NCBI GenBank assembly: GCA_016871775.1
Contig: VHCI01000007.1
Span: 1-54,368 of the forward strand
Reading direction: 5' to 3'
Source: Verrucomicrobiota bacterium
GTDB taxonomy: Bacteria > Verrucomicrobiota > Verrucomicrobiia > Opitutales > Opitutaceae
Length of the DNA: 54,368 nt
Under the pieces are notes generated by a model, which was not told the origin of the DNA, ran no database searches, and saw only the letters and a program-made list of their open reading frames with translations. Shown here in pieces: positions 4,470-38,227 of the stretch (the stretch's first letter is position 1; the number at the start of each line of letters is the position of its first letter). The translations under genes were made by a program, and so were the position numbers.

Positions 4470-6974
4470 TCAGGGCGCGACCTCGTAGATTTCGACCAGC
4501 GCGTTGCCGGTCTGGGCGTTCGGCCCCGCGTTGGGCGGGCCGCTGACCACTGCCGTGTAGGCGCCGGGCTCGAGATAAACCAGCAGGGCGGCGTCGAGGC
4601 TCTGCGCGCCGAGCGCAAAGGCGCGCACGGCGGCAGATGCCTCGCGGATCAGGTTGGCCTCCGGGTCGCGGAACCAGTCGTCGTTGGTCCGTACCAGCGC
4701 GGAGCCGCGGAAGAGGTTGAGCTGGGGGTTAGCGAGGACCCCGGGGACGTTGAAAGGGGCGTTGCCCATGGTCGGGCCGACCGCGCGGATGAGCACGCGC
4801 TGCGGGGCGGTGCCGCTGATGACGAAGCCCGCGATGAGCGCGGCCTCGGGGGCGACGATGGTGCGCGTGGAGGCGTTGGTGAACCGGCGGCTCCCCGGGG
4901 CCTCGCCGGCCGCGGGCACGCCGTAAAGCTCGGCTAGGACGATGCCCTGCCCGCCGCCCACCTGCGCGGTGTAGACGCCTGCCGGGAGGGGGGCGAGGAG
5001 GGCCGCGTCGGCGCTGCCCGGCGCTAGGGCGAAGGCGCCGGTGGCCGTCGCGGCCGCGGCGAGGGCGGCGGCCCCGGCGGGCGGCTGGCCCCAGTCGTTG
5101 TTCTGCGCGAGGGCAGTGGTCACGCGGAACAGCTGCAGGTTTGGGTCCGGCAGCGCCCCCGCGACGTTGAATGGCGGCCGGCCAATGCCCGGCCCGACCG
5201 CGCGTAGGAGCACAGACTTCGCCGCCGCCCCGCCCGTCGCAAACCCGAGGATGAGCGGCGCGCCCGGCAGACTGACCCCGCGGACGGAAAGGTTCACCAA
5301 CTGCTCTTGGCCGAGGAGCGCCTCGATCGCCCCGGCGAGGGTGCCCGTGGTGCCCGCGGCGGTGCGGACCGAGCCGCGGACCGCGCCTGCCGCGAATCCC
5401 AGATCCAGAGTGGCTCCGCCGTTGGAGGTCACTCGCAGGCGGCCGGTCGCATCCAAACGTCCCGCCGCGTTGTCCGCGGCGGCGCCGCCGGACGTGACCA
5501 CGAGGACCTGACCATCGGGGGCGACGAGCGCGTGTCCCCGGCCGCCGCCGCTCCCAACGAGGGCCAAACGGTACAGTCCCGCCGCGGCGAAGGGGGCTTC
5601 GGCGCGGATCCTCGTCCCAGTAAAGGTCTCATTGAGGGCAGCGAGGGTCAGCTGGGCCGAGCCCGTGAGCTCGTCGAGCGTCCCGGTGGCGACAAAGGCG
5701 CGCGGGGTCGCCTCGCTGGTGGAGCCGGTGCCGCGCACGTCGCCCCGGAGGTCCACGGTGGCGTCGAGCAGGACGATGGCGGTGCCGCTTGAGGGGACAG
5801 GCGCGAGCAGCGCAGCGGTGCCGTCGGCGCGCACGAGCAGGAAGCCCTCGCTGCCTCCGGAAAGCCGGCCGGCATAGGTGCCCGTGAAGTCACGTACCGT
5901 CACGGTCAGGGCGGCAGCCGCGCTGGTGGCGGTGCCGAGGGCGTTGGCGGCGAGAACGTCGTAGGCGCCGGCCGCAGCCACGGTCGCAGGCGTCAGGCGA
6001 AGGATGGTTCCGGTCTGCCCGGGAAGCGGAGTGCCGTTACGCCGCCATTGTAGCGCCGGGGCGGGAAAACCAGCCACTTCAACGGAGAGGGTGGCTCCGT
6101 CGCCGGCCGTCACGGTCAGCGCCGCAGGCTGGCGAGTGAACACAGGGGCTGACTGGACCCTTACCTGTGCCGCGCTGGAGTCGCTGCCCGCGAGGTTGGT
6201 CACCGTCACCGCGTAGCGGCCGGTGTCGGCAAGGGTGAGCGCGGCCAAGGCGAGTTCGGTGCGCGTGGCGCCAGGGATCGCGACGCCGTCGCGACTCCAT
6301 TGGAAGGCGGGAAGGGGCGTGCCCACGGCGGAAGCGCGCAGAGTGAGAGCGGTGCCCGCCAGCGGCGACTGGTCGGTCAAGCGTACGGTGAGGTAGGGGG
6401 CGAGGCTGCCGACCAGAAACCGGATGGTGCGCTCCACGGGGACCGCAGCGGCGTAGGTGGCGTTGCCCGCCTGCGTCGCCCGCACGACCACGTCTCCCCC
6501 CTCACTGGTGAGCAGGTTGCCCGCGAGCGACGCCGCCCCGGAAACCAGCGTCACCTTCACCGGTAGTCCCGACGAGGCGGTGGCGGTCAAGCGCACACCG
6601 CTGCCGGCTGCGACCACCAACGCGGGCAGGTCGAGGCTGATGGCCTGCGGGCGCGGGGACACGAAGACCCAAGCCGGCAGGCTGGTGGCGCTCCCACTTG
6701 GATTGGTTACGACGACGTCATACCGGGCGCGCGGGATCGCGAGCGAGGCCGCAAACATCAGGACCGGGGCGTTCTCGCCGGGCAGGCCGGCGCCCTCCCG
6801 GCGCCACTGGAAGGAGAGGTTCGCCCCTTCGGCCGTGACCCTCAGGATGACGATGTCGTCCGGATAGACGCTGGTGCCTTCGGGTTGGGCAGAAATTACG
6901 GGGGGTAGGGGGGCTTGGCCTCGCAAGGAGGTTACGACCACGAGGAGGCAGAAAGCGAGGAATCCGGGGCGCAT
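4470..6974 (-). CDS. Secreted Ig-domain protein with tandem C-terminal R-A-V-G-P domains
   Basis: An 834-residue exported protein; the start M-R-P-G-F-L-A-F gives a signal peptide cleaved near S-L-R-G-Q-A. The N-terminal half carries several immunoglobulin-like repeats with the usual Q-W-R-R-x-G / L-x-x-A-D-x-G-x-Y-x-V-x-V-T-N pattern. A beta-rich middle region with [11 protein letters not shown] and many glycine turns follows. The last about 245 residues are two copies of an about 120-residue domain. Each has (V/I)-L-(L/I)-R-A-V-G-P, N-(N/D)-D-W, A-F-A-L, A-A-L-L and a closing (E/V)-(L/I)-Y-(G/E)-V. The second copy ends the protein at E-I-Y-E-V-A-P. The same pair ends the 35441-38227 protein. 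It is divergent from gspD, so it may be a type II secretion substrate (inference). No catalytic motif was recognised. Confidence 0.85.
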
Positions 6975-7146
6975 CGGAGAGGTTGAAACAACCGGAAGGG
7001 GCGATGTCCACGGCGGGGTTGCGTGAAAATCAGGGGTAGTGCCCGGCGGCTGGCGTCGTTCACTGCTGACATCACCGTTTACATCCGCCTTGCTTTGCTG
7101 CACCTTCTCACCGTGGTCGCTTCTCGTGGCCTCCGCCTCCTTCCGC
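6975..7146. promoter_or_regulatory. Divergent control region between the Ig-domain gene and gspD
   Basis: 172 bases separate the two start codons and must hold both promoters. GGTTGAAACAACC (6981-6993) is an inverted repeat with 5-bp arms, only 6 bases upstream of the Ig-gene start, where a bound protein or hairpin could affect that transcript. I could not pick a convincing -35/-10 pair for either gene. Confidence 0.3.
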
Positions 7147-9171
7147 ATGCGCCTTCGTCTTCTTCGAGCCTCCTGCCTCGCCCTTGTCGGCCTCGCCGCG
7201 GGGAGCCTCCACGCCCAAGCCCCTGCGGGAACCCCCGCCCCCGCTCGGACGGAGGAGGATACCGTCAACCAAATCATGCTGCCGGACGCGGACTTGGACA
7301 CGGTACTCAATGTCTACGAGCAGCTCACTGGCCGGATGGTGATCCGCCCCCAGCAGCTGACCGCGGCGACCTATAATCTCCGAATCAAGCAGGCGGTCAC
7401 CAAGGCGGAGGCGATCATCGCGGTCGAAACGGCGCTTGCGGTGAACGGTATCGGCCTTTCCCCTCTGGGCGACAAGTTTCTTAAAGTGGTGAACATCCAG
7501 GCCGTGCGTCAGGAGGCTCCGGAGCTAATCACCGGCTCCGCCTTCGACCGGCCGGCTACGGGCAAGGCCGCCTCCAAGATGTTCACCTTGGAGTTCGCCC
7601 GTGCCCAGGAGGTGGCCCCGATGATCACCGGCCTCCTGAATGCGCTTTTTGGCGGCCCGGTCATCCTCGCCTCCGCGAACGCCCTGCTCGTTACCGACAG
7701 CGTCAGCAACCTGCAGCGGGTCGAGACTGTGCTCCAGCACATCGACCGGCCGAACACTGCGGGGATGAAACCCAAGTTTTACCAGTTGAAGGACGCCAAG
7801 GCCAGCGACCTGGTGAACAAGCTTCGTGGCATCCTCACCGGCACGCTCCAGCAGCAGATCGGCACTGCCACCTCCTACAGCGCCGACGACCGCACCAATC
7901 AAGTCATCCTCGTCACCGACCCGCGCCAGCACGCTTTCTTCGACGACCTGATCGAAAGCCTTGATCGTCGGGCCGACCCGAACACCCGCAACGAGGTTAT
8001 TTACCTCAAGCACGCCAAGGCCACGGACGTGGTTAACGTGCTGAGCCGCATCATCTCGGGGACCAACACCGCGCTCCAGCGGCAGGGGGCCGCCGGCCCG
8101 CGCCCGGCCGCGCCCGCCGCGAATCCTAGCCAGCCCGCCCCGGGCGCGGTGCCCGCCCCTACGATCGTCTCCGCCTCCAATGCCCAGAGCGACGGCAATA
8201 ACGAGTTCAGCTCGCTCATGACCGTGGTGAACGACGACCGCAGCAACGCCGTGGTCGTTTTCGGCACCTCGGACGACATCCGCCTCGTCCGCGCCCTGAT
8301 CGACAAGCTCGACATTGTGCTACCCCAGGTGCGCATCGAGGTGGTCATCGCCGAGGTCACCCTTGACAACCAGCACACCAGCGGGATCGGCGCGCTCGGG
8401 CTCAAGATTGAGGGCGATAAGCTGGTCGGTTTCACCGGCAGTACGGCCGGGCTGGCCATCTCCGGCGGCGCCATCTCGCGCAGCGCCGCGGTTTCTGGCG
8501 CCCGCGACCTTGCCGCCGAGATCGCGTTCAACACCGCGCCGCGCTCGCGCAACAACGCCATTACCACCCAGCCCGTCGTCGTCACCAGCCACGGCAAGCA
8601 GGCCAAGTTCTTCAACGGCGAGACCCGCCCCGTCGTCACCGGCACGATTCAGTCCGCTGCCGGCGTCAGCACCGGCCTCGCTTCCAGCTCTACCGTCACC
8701 CAGCAGCAGATCGGCACCACGCTCACGGTCACGCCCTTTATCGGCATCGACGGGGCGGTGCAGCTGGACTTGGTCCAGACCGTTGAGGACGTGATCGGCG
8801 AGGTGCTGGTCGACCAGAACAAGCAGTACGTGATCGGCCGGCGCGAATCGACCAACTACGTCTCCGCCAAGTCGGGTGATATCATCGTCATCAGCGGCTT
8901 CCGCAAGAACTCCTCCCTCCGTAGCTCCAGCCGCTTCGGCCCCATCCCGATCATCGGCGACCTGCTTGGCGCGCGCTCCCGCGGCCAGACGGTGTCCGAC
9001 CTCGTGTTTTTCGTCCGCCCGGTGGTTCTCACCAATACGCCCGCGATCGACAACGCTGACGCCTACCGGCGGATTGACAGCTGGCCCTCCCGCGACGAGG
9101 TCAAGAAGGAGTTGGATCCCTCCTACGTGGCCCCGCCCCGCTCGACGATCGACCGTCTCCTCGGAAAATGA
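7147..9171 (+). CDS. gspD: Type II secretion system secretin GspD
   Basis: A 674-residue outer-membrane secretin that forms the exit channel of a type II secretion (or related) machine. The ATG at 7147 gives a clean signal peptide ending near S-L-H-A-Q-A; earlier in-frame starts do not. An N0/STN-like domain spans about residues 38-110. Three ring domains begin near residues 142, 208 and 282 (x-Y-L-K-H-A-K-A in the third). The secretin core starts near 392 with [13 protein letters not shown] and includes F-R-K-N-S and [11 protein letters not shown] proline/alanine-rich insert of about 30 residues interrupts the third ring domain. The stop overlaps the gspE ATG by four bases, so translation is coupled. 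Confidence 0.93.
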
Positions 9172-10910
9172 GCGCCGTCGCGGACCTTCAGGCCCCTGCC
9201 GCGGGGCTCCTGCCCGCCGCGCTTGCCGAGAAACTCACGGACGAGCAGTGCCAGGCGCTTGCCGAGGCCCCCCGCGGGCAACGGCTTGCGATGCTGGCCG
9301 CCGCGCTCGCGCGGCCCGAGATCGAGGTGTTGCCCGCTCTCGCCGCCGCCGCCGGCCTTGAGGTCGCGAGCAACCTCGAGGCCGATGCCGAGGCCCGCGG
9401 GTTGCTCCCGGCCCGCCTTGTCCACGAGTACCAGATTATCCCCCTGCAGTTGGCGCGCGCCAGCACCACTCCTTCTCTGCCGGTGCCGGATCTCGAGCGC
9501 CCGCTCCACCTCGCCGCGGCATGGCTGCCGGACGCGGACATGGCCGCGTGGATCCGCACCTTCACCGCCCGGCCGCTGAGGTGGCACCTCGCGGTTCCCG
9601 AACGCGTGCACCAGCTGATCATCGAGAACTTCGGCGTTGGCGCCGGCTCCCTTGAGGACGGGGAGGAGGATTACATCGCGCCCGCGGCTCAGGCCGCTGC
9701 GGAGGAGGTGGTCGACGAGGAGGCGGCGGTGGTCCGCTTCGTTACCGATGTCATCTCCCAGGCGGTGGCGGACCAGGCCACGGACATTCACTTTGAACCC
9801 CAGGAGGCGCAGCTGCGCATCCGCTACCGGGTCGACGGCCTGCTGGTGCCGGTCCCGGTCCCGGAGAACCTGCTACGTTTCCAGGACGCGATCATCTCCC
9901 GCCTCAAGATTATGGCGCGGATGAACATCTCCGAGAAGCGCCTGCCGCAGGACGGCCGCATCAACTTTCGCGCCGGCGGCGTGACGCTCGACATCCGCGT
10001 TTCGACCGTCCCGACGATCTACGCGGAATCGATCTCCCTGCGCCTCCTCAACCAGAAGAAGGAGGCGTTTTCGATGGACCGCCTCGGGATGAGCTTGGAG
10101 GAGCAGGCGGCAATTGGCGAGGTCCTCGACACTCCCCACGGCATCATCCTCGTCACCGGCCCGACCGGTTCCGGCAAGAGCACCTCGCTCAACGCCTTCC
10201 TGCGGAAGATCAACTCCACCGACCTCCGCATCATCACCATCGAGGACCCGATTGAGTACGAGGTGCCCGGAGTGAACCAGATGCAGGTGCGGCCCGAGAT
10301 CGGCCTGACCTTCGCCGAAGCCCTGCGCCACGTGCTGCGGCAGGATCCGGACGTGATCATGGTGGGTGAGATCCGGGACAGGGACACGGCCGAGATCGCG
10401 ATCCGCGCCTCGCTGACGGGCCACTTGGTATTCTCAACTCTGCATACCAATGACGCCCCCGGCGCGATCACCCGCCTCGTGGACATGGGCATCGAGCCCT
10501 TCCTCGTGGCGTCGGCGATCGAGCTGGTAATCGCGCAGCGGCTGGTGCGGCGGCTCTGCCCCGAGTGCTCCCGCCCGGCGCCCATCTCGCGGGTGAAGCT
10601 GGTCGAAACTCTCGCGATCCTCGGCTGCGATCCGAAGGAGGGGGTGGGAGTGACCGAGCTGGCGGCGCCGGTGGGCTGCGACCGCTGCCGGGGCACGGGT
10701 TACCGCGGGCGCATCGGCATCTTCGAAATCTTCCGCCTCAACGAGGAAATGCACCAGCTGGTGCTCAAGCGCGAGAGCACGCGCACCCTTGCCGAGTGCG
10801 CCCGCCGTCACGGGATGCGCACGCTCGGGCAGAGCGGCTGGGAGAAGGTGCGCCGCGGCCACACCACGTTCGACGAGGTGCTTCGGGTCATCACCGTGGT
10901 GGACAAGTGA
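9168..10910 (+). CDS. gspE: Type II secretion ATPase GspE
   Basis: A 580-residue cytoplasmic hexameric ATPase that powers pseudopilus assembly. The N-terminal about 180 residues are the MshEN/T2SSE-N region. The ATPase core has Walker A G-P-T-G-S-G-K-S near residue 330, I-T-I-E-D-P-I-E-Y-E, Walker B D-V-I-M-V-G-E-I-R-D near 393 and the His box T-L-H-T-N-D-A. The zinc-binding C-P-E-C (near 463) and C-D-R-C (near 503) are both present, which favours GspE/PilB over PilT. The ATG is inside the gspD stop (ATGA) and the stop shares one base with the gspF ATG (TGATG). PilB is the main alternative; the adjacent gspD and gspF cannot by themselves separate the two. Confidence 0.93.
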   Translation: MSAVADLQAPAAGLLPAALAEKLTDEQCQALAEAPRGQRLAMLAAALARPEIEVLPALAAAAGLEVASNLEADAEARGLLPARLVHEYQIIPLQLARASTTPSLPVPDLERPLHLAAAWLPDADMAAWIRTFTARPLRWHLAVPERVHQLIIENFGVGAGSLEDGEEDYIAPAAQAAAEEVVDEEAAVVRFVTDVISQAVADQATDIHFEPQEAQLRIRYRVDGLLVPVPVPENLLRFQDAIISRLKIMARMNISEKRLPQDGRINFRAGGVTLDIRVSTVPTIYAESISLRLLNQKKEAFSMDRLGMSLEEQAAIGEVLDTPHGIILVTGPTGSGKSTSLNAFLRKINSTDLRIITIEDPIEYEVPGVNQMQVRPEIGLTFAEALRHVLRQDPDVIMVGEIRDRDTAEIAIRASLTGHLVFSTLHTNDAPGAITRLVDMGIEPFLVASAIELVIAQRLVRRLCPECSRPAPISRVKLVETLAILGCDPKEGVGVTELAAPVGCDRCRGTGYRGRIGIFEIFRLNEEMHQLVLKRESTRTLAECARRHGMRTLGQSGWEKVRRGHTTFDEVLRVITVVDK

Positions 10911-12142
10911 TGCCCCGTTTCGCCTACAGCGGACGCGATCGCGCGGGGCACCCGGTCACGGCGGAGCTCGAGTGCCCCTCGCGCCGAGACGCCCTGCGGG
11001 TGCTCGCCGCCCGGGGCGTACAGGCCCGGACGGTGGAGGAGCTGGCTGCCGGCAAGACGGTCGCCCGCCGCCCGGCCGAGCTCCGGACCGCGCGGATGCT
11101 CACCCGGCGCGAGTGCCTGCCCTTCCTCGAGGCGTTGTACGATCTTGTCCACAGCGGTCTGTCCGCTGGCGAGGCCGTGCGGCTGCTTTCGGTTCGCGTC
11201 CAGGAGCCGCGGCTCCGCCGGCTTTCCGGCCAGCTTTGGGAACGCATCAGCGAGGGCGCACCCCTGTCGCGGGCGATGGCCGCGAGCACCGCGGTCTTCG
11301 AACCGTCGGTCACCAACCTCATTCAGGCGGGGGAGGCGACGGGCTCGCTGAATGACACCCTCGCGCGGCTGATCTCGCACCTGACAGAACAGCGCGAACT
11401 GCGGCGGCAGCTGCTCGCCGCGCTGGCCTACCCGGCGTTCATGGTGGTGGTGGCGGGTGGGGTGATCGTGTTCTTTCTCGTCTTCCTGCTGCCGCGGCTA
11501 AAGACGCTCCTCACCTCGCTCGGCGGCAAGATGCCCGCTTCGACCTCGCTCCTGATCGGGCTCTCCGAATTCCTGCTCAGCCCGTGGGGCATTGGCCTCG
11601 CCGTGGCGGCGGTAGTGGGCTTTAGCTCGTTCCTCGGCTGGCGGCGCACCGCGGCCGGCCGGGCGGCGACGGACGCCTGGCTGGTGCGCCTGCCGCTGAC
11701 GGGGCCGTTCGTGGTCGCGCAGACGGTGCTTGCCTTCGCCCAGACGCTCTCGGTGCTGCTTGAGAACGGCATCACCGCGGCGGAGGCGCTGCGGATGACG
11801 GAGAAGCAGATCGGCAACACCGTGCACCGGTCCGCCTTCCAAGCGGCGATCGCACGCGTGCTCGAGGGCGAGGCGCTGTCCGCCGCGCTCGGCCGCACCG
11901 GCTGCTTCCCGGCGCTGGTGCTCGACCGCCTGGCGGTCGGCGAGAACACGGGCAACGTGGTGCCCAGCCTCAAGCAGATCGCCGCGGCCTACCAGAAGCG
12001 CATTTCCTCGCAGCTCAACGTCTTCACTAAGGTGATCGCCAGTGGCGTGCTGATGGCGGTGTTCATCTTTGTCGGCTTTATCGCCTTCGCCATCGTGAGC
12101 GCGGTCTTCCAAGTCAGCTCCAGCTTCAAGCTCGGCGGTTGA
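10910..12142 (+). CDS. gspF: Type II secretion inner-membrane platform protein GspF
   Basis: A 410-residue polytopic protein of the GspF/PilC family that couples the ATPase to pseudopilin assembly. The N-terminal segment F-A-Y-S-G-R-D-R-A-G-H is typical. It is followed by two T2SSF helical bundles: the first contains L-I-Q-A-G-E-A-T-G-S-L, the second V-G-E-N-T-G-N-V-V. Membrane segments lie near residues 168-195, 227-244 and 374-401. The ATG at 10910 overlaps the gspE stop by one base, so gspD-E-F form one unit. No gspG, C, L or M follows: the next gene is convergent, so the remaining parts must be elsewhere. Confidence 0.93.
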   Translation: MPRFAYSGRDRAGHPVTAELECPSRRDALRVLAARGVQARTVEELAAGKTVARRPAELRTARMLTRRECLPFLEALYDLVHSGLSAGEAVRLLSVRVQEPRLRRLSGQLWERISEGAPLSRAMAASTAVFEPSVTNLIQAGEATGSLNDTLARLISHLTEQRELRRQLLAALAYPAFMVVVAGGVIVFFLVFLLPRLKTLLTSLGGKMPASTSLLIGLSEFLLSPWGIGLAVAAVVGFSSFLGWRRTAAGRAATDAWLVRLPLTGPFVVAQTVLAFAQTLSVLLENGITAAEALRMTEKQIGNTVHRSAFQAAIARVLEGEALSAALGRTGCFPALVLDRLAVGENTGNVVPSLKQIAAAYQKRISSQLNVFTKVIASGVLMAVFIFVGFIAFAIVSAVFQVSSSFKLGG

Positions 12143-13357: not shown

Positions 13358-13448
13358 CTGGGCGTGATGGCCGCGCGGGTCCCGGCATGCACGCCAGAAA
13401 ATGAGGCTTCCCCGCCGCCCGTGCCCGCGCTTAGCTCGGCGCACCGCG

Positions 13449-14888
13449 ATGCGCTTGGCCCCGACCCCCACCGCCCCGCCCCTGACGCGCCGCGACTTCC
13501 TCGCCCGCTGCGGACTGGGCTTCGGCGCGCTCGGCCTCGCGGCGCTGGCGGGGACCCCGGCCGCGGCGGCTACCGCTTTCGATCCGCTGCGGCCCCTCGC
13601 GCCGCGCCCACCGCACTTCCCGGCCCGCGCCCGCCGGGTGATCCACATCTTCGCCAACGGCGGCCCGTCGCAGGTCGACACGTTCGACCCCAAGCCCGCC
13701 CTCGCGCTCTGGCACGGGAAGCCGCTCCCGCTCGAGCTCAAGACCGAGCGCCGTACCGGCGCCGCGTTCGCCTCGCCTTTCCGTTTCGCCCGCCACGGCC
13801 GCAGCGGCCTCGAGGTCAGCGAGCTCTTCCCCCACGTCGCCTCCTGCGCGGACGAGCTCGCCGTGATCCGCTCGATGCGGGCCGACGTGCCCAACCACGA
13901 GCCCTCGCTGATGCTGATGAACTGCGGCGACGCGCGCCTGCCGCGGCCCAGCCTCGGCTCCTGGGTCACCTATGGCCTCGGCTCCGAGAACCAGAATCTG
14001 CCCGGCTTCGTCGCGCTGTGTCCCGGCGGGTACCCGATCCAGGAGTCCCAGAATTGGCAGAGCGCCTTTCTGCCGGGCATCTTCCAAGGCACACACGTCG
14101 ACACGCGCCATCGGGAGGTGGAGCGGTTGATCGAGCACATCCGCAGCCCGCTCACCGGCCCCGCCGACCAGCGTGCCCAGCTCGACCTCCTCGCCCGCCT
14201 CAACGCCCGCCACGCGGCCGCGCGCGCCGCTGATCCGCGGCTCGAGGCCCGCATCCAGTCCTTCGAGCTGGCCTCGCGGATGCAGCTCGAGGCCACCGAC
14301 GCCTTCGACCTCGCCCGGGAACCCGCCGCGATGCGGGAGCGCTATGGCGACACCACCCACGGCCGGCAGCTCCTCATCGCCCGCCGTTTGCTCGAGCGCG
14401 GCGTGCGTTTCGTCCAGGCTTGGCACGGACAGGGCCAGCCGTGGGACAACCACGATGACCTCGAGGTGAACCACCGCCGCTTGGCCCGCCAGAGCGACCA
14501 GGCGATAGGCGCCCTCCTGCGCGACCTGCGCGAGCGCGGGATGCTGGACGAGACGCTGGTGGTCTGGGGCGGCGAGTTCGGCCGCACCCCGGTGGTGGAA
14601 CTGCCCACGGCCGGCGCCAACGCGGGCAAGGTCAACGGCCGCGACCACAACCACCACGGCTTCACGATGTGGCTCGCCGGCGGCGGCGTCCGTGGGGGGA
14701 TGGTCCACGGCGCGACCGACGAGTTCGGCTTCCGCGCGGTCGAGAAGCCGGTGCACGTGCACGACCTCCATGCCACCCTCCTCGCGCTGCTGGGCTTCGA
14801 CCACGAGCGGCTCACCTACCGCCATGCCGGCCGCGATTACCGCCTGACCGATGTCCACGGCCAGGTGGTGCGGGAGCTGATCGCGTGA
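13449..14888 (+). CDS. DUF1501 family protein with Tat signal
   Basis: A 479-residue protein of the DUF1501 family, which has an alkaline-phosphatase/sulfatase-like fold. A twin-arginine signal T-R-R-D-F-L is at residues 13-18, followed by a hydrophobic stretch and A-A-A-A-T, so it is exported folded. The core has H-I-F-A-N-G-G-P-S-Q-V-D-T-F-D-P-K near the start, V-V-W-G-G-E-F-G-R-T-P in the second half, and D-H-N-H-H-G-F before the end. Another in-frame ATG at 13401 would add 16 residues; 13449 is chosen because it places the RR motif close to the N-terminus. It overlaps the following PSD1 cytochrome gene by four bases (GTGA), a pair that recurs in Planctomycetes and Verrucomicrobia. The biochemical activity of the family is not established to my knowledge. 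Confidence 0.9.
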   Translation: MRLAPTPTAPPLTRRDFLARCGLGFGALGLAALAGTPAAAATAFDPLRPLAPRPPHFPARARRVIHIFANGGPSQVDTFDPKPALALWHGKPLPLELKTERRTGAAFASPFRFARHGRSGLEVSELFPHVASCADELAVIRSMRADVPNHEPSLMLMNCGDARLPRPSLGSWVTYGLGSENQNLPGFVALCPGGYPIQESQNWQSAFLPGIFQGTHVDTRHREVERLIEHIRSPLTGPADQRAQLDLLARLNARHAAARAADPRLEARIQSFELASRMQLEATDAFDLAREPAAMRERYGDTTHGRQLLIARRLLERGVRFVQAWHGQGQPWDNHDDLEVNHRRLARQSDQAIGALLRDLRERGMLDETLVVWGGEFGRTPVVELPTAGANAGKVNGRDHNHHGFTMWLAGGGVRGGMVHGATDEFGFRAVEKPVHVHDLHATLLALLGFDHERLTYRHAGRDYRLTDVHGQVVRELIA

Positions 14889-17677
14889 CCTTGCGTGGCC
14901 TCTCCCTGCTGGGGTTCGTCTTGGCCCCGGCCGCGGCCGCTGCCGGCCTGAGCCCCGAGGAGGAGGCCTTCTTCGAGTCCCGCATCCGGCCGGTGCTGGC
15001 CGAGCACTGTTACCGCTGCCACAGCGCCCGGGAGGGCAAAGCCAAGGGTGGTCTCCAGCTGGACACCCGGGAGGCCCTGCGGCGAGGCGGGGATTCCGGG
15101 CCCGCGCTCGTGCCGGGCGATGCCGAAAAGGGCCTGCTGCTCGCCGTCGTCCGCCCGGGTAATCCCGACCTGCAGATGCCCCCAGCCGACGCGGGACCGC
15201 CGCTGACCCCGGCGCAGGTCGCCGACCTTGAGGCGTGGATCCGCCGCGGGGCGCCCGACCCCCGGGAGGGCGCCGCCGCGCCGACCGCCGCCGAGCTCGC
15301 GCGCACGCACTGGGCGTTCCAACCGCCACGCGCCCCCGCGTTGCCCCCGGTCCCCGGCGCCGCCGCCGATCCGATCGAGGCCTTCCTCCGGGCCACCCCG
15401 GGCGCCCCCGCCGCCGCGGCCGCGCCTGAAGCCGACGCCCGGACGCTCCTGCGGCGCGTGAGCTACGCGCTCACCGGCCTGCCCCCGACCCCGGAGGAAA
15501 CCGACACGTTCGTCCTCGAGCACGCCGCCGACCCCGGCGCCTACGTGCGCGCGGTGGAACGGTTCCTCGCCTCCCCGGCCTACGGCGAACGCTGGGGTCG
15601 CCACTGGCTCGACGTGGCCCGCTACGCCGACACCCAGGGCTACCTCGTGGGCGAGGCCGAGCGCCGCTTCGCCTTCTCCCACACCTACCGCGACTACGTG
15701 ATCCGGGCGTTCAACGCCGACCTGCCCTACGACCGCTTCCTCACCGAGCAGCTCGCGGGCGACCTGCTCGCGTCCGGCGAGGACCGGAGCCCGCTCGCCG
15801 CCCTCGGCTTCCTCACCCTCGGCCGGCGGTTCCTCAACAATCAGAACGACATCATCGATGACCGGATCGACGTCGTCACCCGCGGCCTCCTCGGGCTGAC
15901 CGTCGCCTGCGCCCGCTGCCACGACCACAAGTCCGAGCCGGTCACGATGCGGGATTACTACGCGCTGCACGGGATCTTCGCCTCCTCGGAGGAACCGGCC
16001 GAGAAACCCCTGCTCGCGCCGGTGACGGACACCCCGGAGCACCGCGCCTACCTCGCCAAGCGCGCCGCGACCGAGGAGCGGGTGCGGGCCCGCGAGCGCG
16101 AGGAGGTGGACAAGTTCCTCGCGGGCATCCGCGCGCGGACGGGGGACTACCTCCTCGGGGTCCACGATTCCGCCCGGCTCCCGCCCGACGCGAAGCCGGA
16201 ACTCTTCGCGGGGGAACGGAAGCTCAACCCGGAGTTCCTGCGGCGCTGGCGCGAGTTCCTCGCCTCCCCGGAGGCGGCCGCGCACCCGGTCCTCGCCCCG
16301 TGGTTCGCACTGGTCGCGCTGCCGGCGGAAGGATTCGCCGCCGCGGCCGCCGATCTCGTCTGCGGCTGGTCCGACACTCGCCCACCCGGCCTCGATCCGA
16401 CGGTGGTCGCCGCGCTCGCTGGCGTGGCGCGACCGCTGGGCTCCCCCGCCGACGTCGCAGCGGTTTACAACCGCGTGTTCGCCGCCGCCGGCCCCGCCCC
16501 GGCCTCCGCGGACTCCGCCCCGCCCTCCGGTCCGCGGGCGCTGGCCGCAGCGGACGCCTTTGCCGGTACGCTCCCGTTCCCCGCGGCGGCTGCCCTGATC
16601 CGGCGCCAGCTTGACACCCGCACGGCGGCGATCCGCCGCGAGTTGGCGGCGCTCGAGTGGACCGAACCCGGCGCCCCGCTGCGCGCGATGGCGCTGGCGG
16701 ACCGCGCGCAGCCGCGCGATTCCGCCGTGCTCCTCCGAGGCAATCCCGCGAACCGGGGCCCCGTCGTGCCGCGCGGCGTGCTCACCCTCATCGCCGGCGC
16801 GGATGCCGCCCCCGTCGCGGCGGGCAGTGGCCGCCTCGAACTGGCGCGGGCGGTGGCGCGGGCGGACAATCCGCTGACCGCCCGCGTGTTCGTCAACCGC
16901 GTCTGGGCCTGGCACTTCGGGGAGGGGCTGGTGCGAACCCCGAGCGACTTCGGCGTGCGCACGGTGGAGCCGGAGTTGCGGGACCTGCTCGACTGGCTGG
17001 CGGCGGACTTCATTGCTGGGGGCTGGTCGGTGAAGCGGCTCCAGCGTCGGATTTTGCTCTCTGCGGCCTACCGCCGCGCGGGGGAGGCGCCGGCGGCCAC
17101 CCTTGCGGCCGATCCCGAGAATCGGCGGCTGACGCGCTTTCCCCGCCGCCGCCTCGATTTCGAGGGCCTGCGCGACACCTTCCTCGCGGTCTCCGGACGG
17201 TTGGAGACGCGGTTGGGCGGTCAAGCCGAGGACCTGTGGCGTGAGCCGTTCTCGACCCGCCGGACGGTGTACGGCTTCATCGACCGCCAGAACCTCCCGG
17301 GCGTCTTCCGCGCTTTCGATTTTCCCAACCCCGACGCCTCCGCGGCCCAGCGCTTCGCGACCACGGTCCCGCAGCAGGCCCTGTTCCTCCTCAACAGCCC
17401 ATTCGCGCTTGAGATGGCGCGCGCCTTGGCCGCCCGGGTCGAGGCGGCCGCGGTGCCGGGATCCGCGCGCTTCGAGGCCTTGTTCCGCTTCGTGCACCAG
17501 CGCGCCCCGGACCCCGCGGAGCGGGAGTGGGCGGATCAGTTCCTTGCTATGGAGGCCCCGGCGCCGTCGGAGCTATCGATTGCGGCGGAAGGCCAGGCGG
17601 GGCAACCCCCGCTGAGCAGGCTGGCGCAGCTCGCGCAGGTCCTGCTGTTGGCCAACGAAACGGCGTTCGTGGATTGA
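14885..17677 (+). CDS. PSD1-type cytochrome protein (PSCyt1, DUF1549, DUF1553)
   Basis: A 930-residue exported protein. The GTG at 14885 overlaps the DUF1501 stop and gives a short signal peptide (L-S-L-L-G-F-V-L-A-P). A haem motif C-Y-R-C-H sits at residues 42-46 in the planctomycete cytochrome C domain. DUF1549 follows (Y-A-D-T-Q-G, R-F-L-N-N-Q-N-D) with a second C-A-R-C-H-D-H-K near residue 341. DUF1553 occupies the C-terminal third (N-P-L-T-A-R-V-F-V-N-R-V-W, S-A-A-Y-R, F-D-F-P-N-P-D). Domain order and size are those of the standard PSD1 partner of DUF1501 proteins. The pair probably carries out an oxidation coupled to respiration in the periplasm, but the substrate is unknown. Confidence 0.92.
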   Translation: MTLRGLSLLGFVLAPAAAAAGLSPEEEAFFESRIRPVLAEHCYRCHSAREGKAKGGLQLDTREALRRGGDSGPALVPGDAEKGLLLAVVRPGNPDLQMPPADAGPPLTPAQVADLEAWIRRGAPDPREGAAAPTAAELARTHWAFQPPRAPALPPVPGAAADPIEAFLRATPGAPAAAAAPEADARTLLRRVSYALTGLPPTPEETDTFVLEHAADPGAYVRAVERFLASPAYGERWGRHWLDVARYADTQGYLVGEAERRFAFSHTYRDYVIRAFNADLPYDRFLTEQLAGDLLASGEDRSPLAALGFLTLGRRFLNNQNDIIDDRIDVVTRGLLGLTVACARCHDHKSEPVTMRDYYALHGIFASSEEPAEKPLLAPVTDTPEHRAYLAKRAATEERVRAREREEVDKFLAGIRARTGDYLLGVHDSARLPPDAKPELFAGERKLNPEFLRRWREFLASPEAAAHPVLAPWFALVALPAEGFAAAAADLVCGWSDTRPPGLDPTVVAALAGVARPLGSPADVAAVYNRVFAAAGPAPASADSAPPSGPRALAAADAFAGTLPFPAAAALIRRQLDTRTAAIRRELAALEWTEPGAPLRAMALADRAQPRDSAVLLRGNPANRGPVVPRGVLTLIAGADAAPVAAGSGRLELARAVARADNPLTARVFVNRVWAWHFGEGLVRTPSDFGVRTVEPELRDLLDWLAADFIAGGWSVKRLQRRILLSAAYRRAGEAPAATLAADPENRRLTRFPRRRLDFEGLRDTFLAVSGRLETRLGGQAEDLWREPFSTRRTVYGFIDRQNLPGVFRAFDFPNPDASAAQRFATTVPQQALFLLNSPFALEMARALAARVEAAAVPGSARFEALFRFVHQRAPDPAEREWADQFLAMEAPAPSELSIAAEGQAGQPPLSRLAQLAQVLLLANETAFVD

Positions 17678-35440: not shown

Positions 35441-38227
35441 TCAGGGCACCTCGTACAGCTCGACCAGCACGCGGCCGGTGGCGTTGCCGGCGTTCCCGGG
35501 GGCCGGGGACGCCTGGAGGGTGTAGGGTCCGGGGGTGAGGGTCGTGAGCAGGGCGGCCTCGTTGGGACTGTTCAGCGGGAAGGCGCCGATGACCGGGAAG
35601 ACCGCGGCGAGCGTGGCCCCGTTGGCCTGGCCCCAGTTGTTGTTGTTGGCCTGGGGCTGGACGCCGCTGAAGAGGACGAGGCGCGGATCGGAGAGCACGG
35701 TGGCTGCGGGCTGGCCGAAGGGCACGAGGCCGGGGCCAATGGCGCGCAGCACGACCGTGCGCGGGGTATTGCCGGCCACGACCACCCCGGGGATGACGGC
35801 CTCGTTGCCGTCGCCGATCCGGGATAGGGAGGAGAGGTTCGTCAGGCGGGAGGCGTTGCGGCTGACGTCGTAGATTTCTGCCATCACCTCGCCGGTGGCC
35901 CCGCCGACGCCGGTCACGACGGCGCTGTAGGAGCCGGGGTCGAGGGTGAGGAGAAGGGCGGAGTCGAGGCTGCCGTTGCCGAGGGCGAAGGTGCCGACGG
36001 CATTGGTGGCGGCGACGAGCTGGGTGCGGGCGGCGGGCGTGGGCTGGTTTTCCCAGCCCACGTTGCGGCCGAGGCTGGTACCGGCGCGGAAGACCTCGAG
36101 ACCGGCCGCGGCAAGCGGTGTGTCCACCCGGAAGCGGCCGAGGCCGGGGCCGACGGCGCGGATAAGCACGTTGGCCTGGGCGCCGGCCGAGAGGGTGAAG
36201 CCGGCGGTGAGGGTGTCGCCGAGGAAGGCGATGTCGCCGCGGGTGGAGAGGTTGATCATCCGGCCCGGTTCAGGGGCAGGGTTGCCGGCGATCCGGGCCT
36301 CAAGGAAGGCGAGCACGCGCCGGTTGGCGCCGCTGAAGAACTCGCGTTCCCCGGAGGCGATGGCCAGCTCAGTGGCGACGTCGGCCGCGCGGGCCCGGTA
36401 CGGCGCCGGTAGCAAGGCGGAGAGGGCGGTGACGGAGGGCTGGGTCCGGGGATAGAGGTTCGCGTCCACGATCCCAGCGGTACGCAGGGCAGCGGCGACG
36501 GTGGTGGCATCCTCGCCGGTGAACCGGTCCGGGTTCTGCAGGCCCAGCATCCGCAGGCGGGCGGGGTAGAGCGGGGTTAGGTCGCTGATCACCACTCCGC
36601 CGGGCACGCCGCGGCCGGCGAGCGTTTGGGCGCGGGCGCGGGCCTCCATGAGGTCGGTCGGACCAGTAGCCTCCTCGTTGGCGGAGACCGCGAAGTATTG
36701 CGGCACCCGCGACAGTGCCGCGAGGGTCTCGTCGCCTCCGGAAAGGTACAGTACTGCGCCGCGGACCAGCCGTCCCGCGGCAAGAAGCAGGTCAGCGTAG
36801 CGCACGCCGGCCACGGCCCCGGCGGCCCGGCCGACAAAGAAGACGGGCGTTGCGGGATCGAGCTCCTCCCGGCGAGCGAGATAATTGAGGGCCGTCACGT
36901 GGTTGAGCGCGTCGGGATTGCCGCCGAGGGCGGCCGTGCCGGACCAAACGCCGGTGACGCGGTTCACGCTATTGAGGGCGGCTACGCCGTAGCCGGCGGC
37001 TACCAGTTCGCGCAGGAGGAGCGAGGGGTGGGCCCGGTCGAACCACTCGTTGAGATCGCCGCCCGACTGGTGTAGGAGGAACACGAGTCCGCGGGGGCGG
37101 AAGGCCGGCAGGTGGTAGGCAAGGGTGCTGGTGACCGCGGGGGCGTTGGCGGTGGCGCCGGGCAGCGCTTGCGGGTTGAAATTACGGGCGATCACCGGCT
37201 GCCACGGCGGCGCGGCCCGGTAGGTGGCCTGCAAGCGCACCGGATTGGTCGGGACGGTCAGGTTGACCTCGCTCAGCTGCGGCAGGATCGGCCCGGCGCC
37301 GAGGGCGGCGGTGTCGCCCGTCCAGCGGTCGAAGACCATCCCGGGGACCGGCGGGTGGGCGACGAGAGTAACGGGGGTGCCGGCCGGGTACGTGCCGCCG
37401 CCATCGCCGCCGTCGACCGTGACCGCGACGGGGGCTCCGGTGCCGAGGGCGAGCACCGAGGACTTCAGGTCAACCTGGACGACGTTGCGGAAATTGACCG
37501 TGCAGGTGAGGCGCTTCAGCCCGGGAGAGGTGGGGCGGAAGGTGATCGTGTTGGTGCCCTGCCCGGTGACGATCGTGGCGCCGCCGGCGACGGCCCAGCG
37601 GAACGTGCGGTCGTTGCCCTCGGCGGCGGGCACTGAGGCGGTGACGCTGGTGGCGTTGGCGGCGATGGTGGCCGGGCTGGTCACCCGGCCGGCCGTGTCG
37701 GCCGCGACGACCGTGACGTTGGCGGTGGGGGCGAACGAGGTGCCGTCCGCGCCGATGGTGGCGGCGAGGGTGACGCTGCCCGGGTTGTCGGCCACGAAGT
37801 TCACGGTGGCGCTGCGGGAATCGCCGACGATGCGCCCGCCGGAGATGCTCCACTGGTAGGAAGCGTTGGCGATGATGGCGGGATCGACGTTGTTCCCGCC
37901 GAGACGGATGGTCGCGGAGGCGTTAGTGCCGCTGAGGATGCCGGAAGGCGCGTTGATGGTCGGGAAGAGGGTGGAGTTCTGGACCCCGCCGCCGGGCGGC
38001 ACGAAGCCCGGGGGAAGGACGATCCCACCACCGCCGGCCCCGCCGCCGCCGGGCAGCACGAAGCCTGGGGGCAGCACGAAGCCTGGGGGAAGGACGATCC
38101 CGCCGCCGCCGCCGCCGGGTAAGGGCGTCGGCCGGATCTGGGCGGCGAGGGGCAGGCCGAGCGCCGCGGCGGCGATCAGCGCGGCAAGCGGTCGATGGGT
38201 ATCAGGAAAACGCGAAGGGGTCAGCAT
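35441..38227 (-). CDS. Secreted protein: Gly-rich repeats, alpha/beta-hydrolase-like domain, tandem R-A-V-G-P domains
   Basis: A 928-residue exported protein with signal peptide ([17 protein letters not shown]). Residues about 36-80 are low-complexity repeats of [12 protein letters not shown]. Two Ig-like/PKD-like segments follow (S-Y-Q-W-S-I-S-G-G and T-F-R-W-A-V-A-G-G) and a bacterial repeat segment (V-F-D-R-W-T-G-D). From near 370 an alpha/beta-hydrolase-like domain begins F-L-L-H-Q-S-G-G-D. At the expected nucleophile elbow (near 460) the sequence is G-R-A-A-G, with no Ser, so catalysis is doubtful. The last about 260 residues are two copies of the domain that also ends the 4470-6974 protein, closing with E-L-Y-E-V-P. 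It follows the helicase gene by 37 bases on the same strand. Confidence 0.85.
37995..38101. repeat. Tandem repeats coding for G-G-I-V-L-P-P-G-F
   Basis: Near-identical about 32-base units at 37995-38026 and 38070-38101, plus a partial unit at 38051-38069, encode the proline/glycine-rich linker next to the signal peptide of the secreted protein. Such units can change number by slippage or recombination. Confidence 0.75.

Follow-up and report, generated by a model that had tools for sequence, protein, structure and literature searches.

Two proteins with signal-peptide-like starts, encoded in the stretch of DNA analysed here (54,368 nucleotides, hereafter the window), each close with two copies of one domain, which we read, with a probability of about 0.5, as a portable PPC-like pair with a putative binding or tethering function at the chain end of exported proteins. 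The window belongs to a 3.78 Mb assembly of 274 contigs (G000). Gene 1 (4470-6974, minus strand) encodes 834 aa comprising the signal-peptide-like start, Ig domains and the terminal pair, of which copy 1 spans 4911-5303 and copy 2 spans 4473-4883 (both minus strand). Gene 2 (35441-38227, minus strand; 928 aa) combines its signal-peptide-like start with PKD-like and InlB-B-repeat-like domains, a middle region and the pair (copy 1, 35858-36262; copy 2, 35444-35848; both minus strand). Copy 2 of gene 1 was delimited by a profile and the other copies by single-copy search and profile. The first protein ends in EIYEVAP directly before its stop codon, with the translated codon of the last residue, proline, at 4473-4475 (minus strand), and the second protein ends in ELYEVP.

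The preliminary description of this DNA had reported the four copies at a length of about 120 residues; we find about 130. One window copy used as a single-sequence query retrieved the other three at E values of 1.7e-22, 2.0e-19 and 4.0e-12, and the similarity among the four copies, as judged from their sequences, is far above chance. The copies are real, but four is too low a count. The single-copy search gave 51 matches in G000, mostly as tandem pairs inside long open frames, and a profile started from the four window copies, after two rounds of refinement, likewise located 51 copies, distributed over 27 ORFs in the loci retrieved. The R-A-V-G-P motif and the N..W patch picked out earlier hold across 50 of the G000 copies, in which N4, G20, R34, F91, G120 and E125 are invariant, G37, A90, D99, G109 and Y127 are kept in 49, P38, L40 and W71 in 48 and the N..W patch in 46, with identities to the first copy of 38-53%. 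Duplication is the rule, as described, but 10 of 90 C-terminal ORFs (including a 93-aa fragment in L131 that was dropped from the position tally below) contain one copy.

AlphaFold predicted a beta-sandwich for copy 2 of gene 1 (pLDDT 94.7, 34 alignment rows) and modelled the pair with a pLDDT of 90.5 and a pTM of 0.87 (17 alignment rows). In comparisons by VIA-align, the single copy resembled residues 421-517 of the Tk-SP protease (Z 10.2, rmsd 2.2, 92 aligned residues), the collagen-binding domain s3b of ColG (Z 9.1, rmsd 2.3, 90 aligned, 16% identity) and the collagenase PPC domain 5sv5 (Z 8.7, rmsd 2.2, 89 aligned), with the DeCLIC N-terminal domain and PliG (both Z 9.2) also near; because best Z values of 7-8 are common without a clear match, the margin of Z 8-10 is modest. 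Foldseek returned Tk-SP, ColG s3b and 5sv5 at E values of 3.1e-4, 5.8e-4 and 1.6e-3, respectively. For the pair, its top match was the tandem s3a-s3b of ColG (E 1.2e-5), with a low TM-score of 0.27-0.31 which suggests a different arrangement of the two domains. By its predicted fold, the domain is a relative of the bacterial PPC and collagen-binding beta-sandwiches, a resemblance that does not by itself indicate a function.

A match to a known catalytic or binding family had been named beforehand as evidence against a sorting tag; the predicted fold is indeed of the PPC/collagen-binding kind, but the sequence has no such match. None of the 50 G000 copies matched PPC (PF04151) at E ≤ 1, and at that threshold Pfam gave ten families with one copy each (best E 0.0089). 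The motif D-x-D-x-[Y/F], reported in excerpts of a study of protease E495 as important for binding by its PPC domains (PMC3327674), occurs in none of the 50 copies. The NCBIfam model NF038127 (FDP_fam, DVUA0089 family) matched 24 of the 50 copies at E ≤ 1 and exceeded its cut-off at one of 13 G000 places; it scored 30.5 bits on gene 1 against a cut-off of 29 and left gene 2 unmatched at E ≤ 1. Its weak match covers the second half of the domain, while the first half does not align. A search of PDB sequences with the profile found only flagellar M-ring proteins (E 0.26 and 0.77), which were judged to be chance matches. The literature searched on C-terminal domains, DVUA0089, PPC and secretion, and DUF1800/DUF1501, which covered few subscription papers, yielded no description of the domain. 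Like PPC, the domain is a beta-sandwich (predicted here), lies C-terminally on exported enzymes and can be tandem; it differs from PPC in R-A-V-G-P and N..W, in its mostly non-peptidase cargo, in its N-terminal use and in the terminal proline. With ColG s3a-s3b it shares the tandem pair and the predicted fold, but the ColG domains bind collagen and the partner of the present pair is only putative.

Among 97 ORFs with the stop codon in view, the domain is C-terminal in 89, in which the domain model stops 1-7 residues ahead of the stop codon, N-terminal in seven, in which it lies close behind the signal-peptide-like start, and internal in one (L073), so the position is not always C-terminal as first stated. 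The sample consisted of all G000 matches, 14 named loci and 60 of the 82 clusters of relatives among the matches listed, drawn from G018 (38 of 38), G013 (19 of 19) and G223 (3 of 13), with none of the 11 clusters of G099 or the single one of G169. The C-terminal share was 22 of 25 in G000, 35 of 38 in G018, 15 of 16 in G013, 3 of 3 in G223 and 14 of 15 at the named loci, the last of which were found with a second copy as query and therefore lean to C-terminal cases. Besides the fragment in L131, the tally leaves out L024 (degenerate, with a 282-aa frame) and the ORFs truncated at the edge of a contig or of the fetched region (L010, L102, L123, L126, L127 and L130). By a home-made rule, a signal-peptide-like start was present in 68 of the 77 carriers whose 5' end is closed, compared with 9 of 24 other ORFs of the window. 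L026, one of the nine carriers missed by this rule, has a long hydrophobic start with no preceding basic residue.

The proteins bearing the terminal pair are as diverse as the preliminary description had supposed, including proteases, glycosidase-like proteins, an amidase, a cyclophilin, beta-propellers and Ig proteins. Pfam matches ahead of the C-terminal pair comprise Ig, PKD-like, subtilase S8, prolyl-oligopeptidase-like, matrixin, GHL10, cyclophilin, Amidase_3, NAGPA and CotH with a lamin-tail domain, as well as the propellers PQQ, NHL, RCC1 and DUF5122; an M11-like cargo scored below the Pfam cut-off. The middle of gene 2, first read as alpha/beta-hydrolase-like, had no Pfam match at E ≤ 1. 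By eye, it apparently contains G-R-A-A-G in place of G-x-S-x-G, which we take to be the motif expected of such a region. In the sole internal case (L073:1366-2715), an Ig-like stretch comes after the pair, together with a repeated tail that appears EF-hand/dockerin-like by eye, with no dockerin match in Pfam at E ≤ 0.01; it looks as though a further terminal module had been appended to the pair.

Five of the seven N-terminal carriers are DUF1800 proteins (L012, L026 and L027 in G000, L097 in G018 and L122 in G013), organized as signal peptide, pair, Calx-beta (in some), CHRD and DUF1800; of the other two, L092 contains Calx-beta and L111 no family above the cut-off. A fetch directed at DUF1800, outside the position tally, revealed two further DUF1800 proteins with an N-terminal pair in G160 (L182 and L183). 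In G122 (L173), DUF1800 and CHRD occur without the pair, which therefore resembles an add-on module. A DUF1501 gene adjoins the DUF1800 gene in the three loci examined (L026, L027 and L097), and in G223 (L131) DUF1800, DUF1501 and then a separate protein with a C-terminal pair are encoded on one strand. Excerpts of an earlier report describe DUF1800 and DUF1501 as predicted members of one operon, with a twin-arginine motif on DUF1501 (PMC5122149). DUF1800 was rejected as a required partner of the domain: it occurs in 60 of 240 genomes, many of which are domain-free, and G099 holds 18 domain copies with no DUF1800 match.

The finding that is new here is a preference for proline as the last residue of the protein. 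Proline is last in 60 of the 89 C-terminal carriers, compared with 32 of 284 other ORFs of the same loci (the window, L001-L029, L074-L133 and L164-L183), this control consisting of longest non-overlapping open frames rather than verified genes. Counted after E-x-[YF], the tail has three residues in 65 carriers, with proline last in 44, and four residues in 17, with proline last in 11 and at the third place in two; tails of five, seven and nine residues (four, two and one carriers) end in proline in two, two and one cases, respectively. First copies have proline at the third place in 2 of 87 and at the fourth in 9 of 87. The preference was also predicted for a check set before it was fetched; this set comprised 60 additional places from 23 other genomes, chosen among the top-scoring rows before their ends were seen. 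At 51 of these places the protein ends after the domain, eight enter a second copy (by eye) and one (G279:C14) is unclassified. Proline was last in 39 of the 51 (22 genomes), and in eight of the ten with tails of at least four residues. Against the control, the p values were 3e-24 for the first set and 4e-21 for the check set, although paralogs are not independent in either. The terminal proline codons were 40 CCG, 15 CCC, 3 CCA and 2 CCT, and all three stop codons are in use. In five DUF1800 pairs, the second copy has a proline four places past the tyrosine though the chain continues, so part of the pattern may serve to cap the final strand instead of the end of the chain. These two readings are best separated by tails of at least five residues, of which 9 of 11 end in proline, a small number. 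Proline tends to stay at the chain end whatever the length of the tail.

According to the tether reading that we favour, a ready-made, mostly tandem module would be fused to one end of exported proteins and, after export, would fold as a fixed two-domain unit, as suggested by the pTM of the modelled pair. The pair would bind a common extracellular partner, such as the cell surface, an exopolysaccharide or an insoluble substrate, and many enzymes, Ig proteins and propeller proteins would thereby be held at one place. The proline closing the exposed tail would be there because some factor reads the free end or acts on it; in the plainest form, it would protect the tail from carboxypeptidases or tail-specific proteases. 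A tether would explain the fold, the diversity of the cargo and the use of either end, and a pair at the start of the mature chain, as in the DUF1800 proteins, is allowed for a tether but not for a C-terminal processing signal. Excerpts of one report state that the tandem PPC domains at the C-terminus of E495 bind protein in both pull-down and SPR assays, and that the tandem PPC domains of MCP-03 are unneeded for secretion (PMC3327674). Against the tether stand the missing PPC match at the sequence level and the absence of D-x-D-x-[Y/F] from all 50 copies. What a mere binding domain leaves unexplained is the last-residue preference together with the near-total avoidance of internal positions. 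The last-residue preference could reflect protection of the free end, slow termination or an end-reading receptor. The sorting or anchoring tag of the preliminary description therefore survives in part: the module is portable, mostly paired, terminal, sporadic and attached to diverse signal-peptide-like cargo, with a preferred last residue, but the link to type II secretion and a strictly C-terminal position are not supported. Anchoring suits the data no less well than export does.

An export or sorting tag read at its end, in which a dedicated apparatus, either a T2SS component or another receptor, would recognise the folded terminal pair together with the closing E-[VI]-Y-x-[VL]-P-COOH and export or place the cargo, is possible but clearly less probable. 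It would accord with a suffix shared by unrelated proteins, most of which have a signal-peptide-like start (68 of 77), with the closing proline in both sets (60 of 89 and 39 of 51) and with a sporadic presence in 50 of 80 genomes of the family, at 2 to at least 53 copies each. However, seven of the 97 carriers are N-terminal and one is internal, the proline preference is weaker outside the family (5 of 15 in G013), and no co-distributed machine emerged among the few candidates tested. One of these candidates was type II secretion, to which the preliminary description had linked the domain through the neighbours of gene 1. Gene 1 is indeed divergent from a gspD-like secretin gene (7039-9171, plus strand; PF00263 and PF03958), which is followed by genes for a T2SSE ATPase (9168-10910, plus strand; PF00437) and T2SSF (10910-12142, plus strand; PF00482), cited here as context only. 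T2SSG occurs in 201 of the 240 genomes, comprising all 11 domain carriers and also 190 of 229 non-carriers (Fisher p 0.22); with T2SS so widespread in the phylum, the gspD link is uninformative. The Pfam model of GspC gave no match above the cut-off and one weak match in the 80 family genomes, compared with matches in 3 of 14 control genomes. Close behind the T2SS genes of the window lies a DUF1501 gene (13401-14888, plus strand), followed by a gene for a planctomycete-type cytochrome protein with PSD1, PSCyt2 and PSCyt1 (14669-17677, plus strand).

Exosortase was likewise rejected as a partner, since it occurs both with and without the domain (75 of the 80 family genomes; 45 of 50 with the domain and 30 of 30 without, p 0.15). 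The five family genomes without a detected exosortase (G252, G255, G268, G279 and G286) are all domain-bearing. PEP-CTERM had no match in G000 at E ≤ 0.01. Across the family, the median number of PEP-CTERM matches was 2.5 in the 34 genomes with at least 25 domain copies versus 17 in the 30 genomes with none (Mann-Whitney p 0.0066), and the two counts correlated weakly and negatively over the 80 genomes (Spearman -0.26, p 0.02). By genus, the relation was not significant (Mann-Whitney p 0.09; Spearman -0.21, p 0.15), and in six genomes the count of each reaches 20 or more, so a replacement of PEP-CTERM by the domain was not accepted. A swap of tags on one cargo was rejected as well: 11 subtilase relatives from six domain-free genomes have Calx-beta-like or other tails and show no clear swap, and these other ends on ORFs whose export is only presumed also tell against an end-read tag. 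SprA of the T9SS was found in none of the 80 family genomes, and the controls were equally silent. In its working, the proposed end-read tag would resemble the T9SS C-terminal domain, although it would not be one.

We took the defining features of sorting signals from excerpts of PMC3237569 and PMC1569441. As in the PEP-CTERM/exosortase and GlyGly-CTERM/rhombosortase systems, the domain is a C-terminal suffix on proteins with a signal-peptide-like start, is present many times per genome and is sporadic in distribution. It differs from both in that its tails (e.g. LVEVYELP) have no visible transmembrane or hydrophobic helix and no basic cluster at the end, by eye, and in that it is folded (predicted) to within 1-7 residues of the stop codon and is sometimes N-terminal; from PEP-CTERM it differs further in that exosortase is not co-distributed with it. 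VesB (PMC12369372) and Pel3 (PMC7949064), T2SS substrates with Ig or Fn3 domains, indicate, according to parts of these two reports, that a beta-sandwich can carry secretion information, but a reading of the present pair by T2SS has no support here.

A specific form of the end-read reading, a new class of folded sorting tag composed of the tandem beta-sandwich and the closing proline, with a putative periplasmic or surface receptor in this bacterial family, seems doubtful; the DUF1800/DUF1501 pair, whose DUF1800 member bears the same module on its other end, would be a candidate part of the receiving scaffold. Equally doubtful is a C-terminal pro-domain or stability cap, which would aid folding or keep enzymes inactive and be removed once export is complete, the usual fate of PPC domains. 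The PPC-like predicted fold would suit this role, but most of the cargo is not peptidase (Ig, propellers, cyclophilin, amidase and DUF1800), and a discarded piece would hardly be expected to conserve its last residue. That the closing proline acts at translation, with slow termination at proline-stop delaying release of the last domain, is very improbable and would explain the last residue only: proline tends to hold the last place across tail lengths and, in excerpts of PMC7246954, C-terminal proline can induce termination stalling in E. coli with a bias that varies between clades, but proline closes only 32 of the 284 control ORFs from these loci and the same excerpts report no significant expression change for terminal proline in a library.

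Pfam and NCBIfam, as scanned, hold no model covering this domain, which is used 51 times in G000 and 72 times in one relative, the single-contig genome G018. Judging from the copy numbers across the genomes of the family, naming it would annotate probably hundreds of exported proteins in the family and provide a handle on the destination of that extracellular proteome. If the domain were read at its end, bacteria whose T2SS fits the standard models poorly would possess a new principle of protein sorting, and if the reader were a receptor, the preliminary description would be right in a new form.

The domain was found in 11 of 240 genomes of the phylum (9 of 131 genera), ten of them among 21 genomes of its own family and the eleventh, G013, from another family of the same class. 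Within its own family, 50 of 80 genomes carry it, with 2 to at least 53 copies each and dozens in many, and the other 30 lack it; the copies scored per genome are lower bounds where they reach 17 in the 240-genome search or 53 in the 80-genome search. A contig scan with one protein gave 14 loci, whose titles are all of the Opitutaceae, Opitutae/Opitutia, Opitutus or Verrucomicrobia type, and a search of plasmids with one pair as query gave no match. In a tree of 144 copies from four genomes, built without L010 and restricted to proteins with exactly two copies scoring above 60 bits, the position within the pair switches 23 times, compared with at least 40 in 200 shuffles, and the genome switches 24 times, compared with at least 55. 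First and second copies thus tend to be different lineages, yet no single split separates more than 77% of them. According to this tree, the two copies of a pair have probably travelled together for the most part, with some mixing, and the copies have probably multiplied within lineages. Degenerate copies without a proper gene lie at L024:2390-2704 and G000:C124:9508-9756, one of them with an internal stop, and are perhaps decaying carriers. The starts of G000 contigs C14 (L010) and C68 (L012) share 95.6% identity across 1592 bases of a DUF1800-type gene; they may represent one gene present in strain variants, or a repeat at which the assembly broke.
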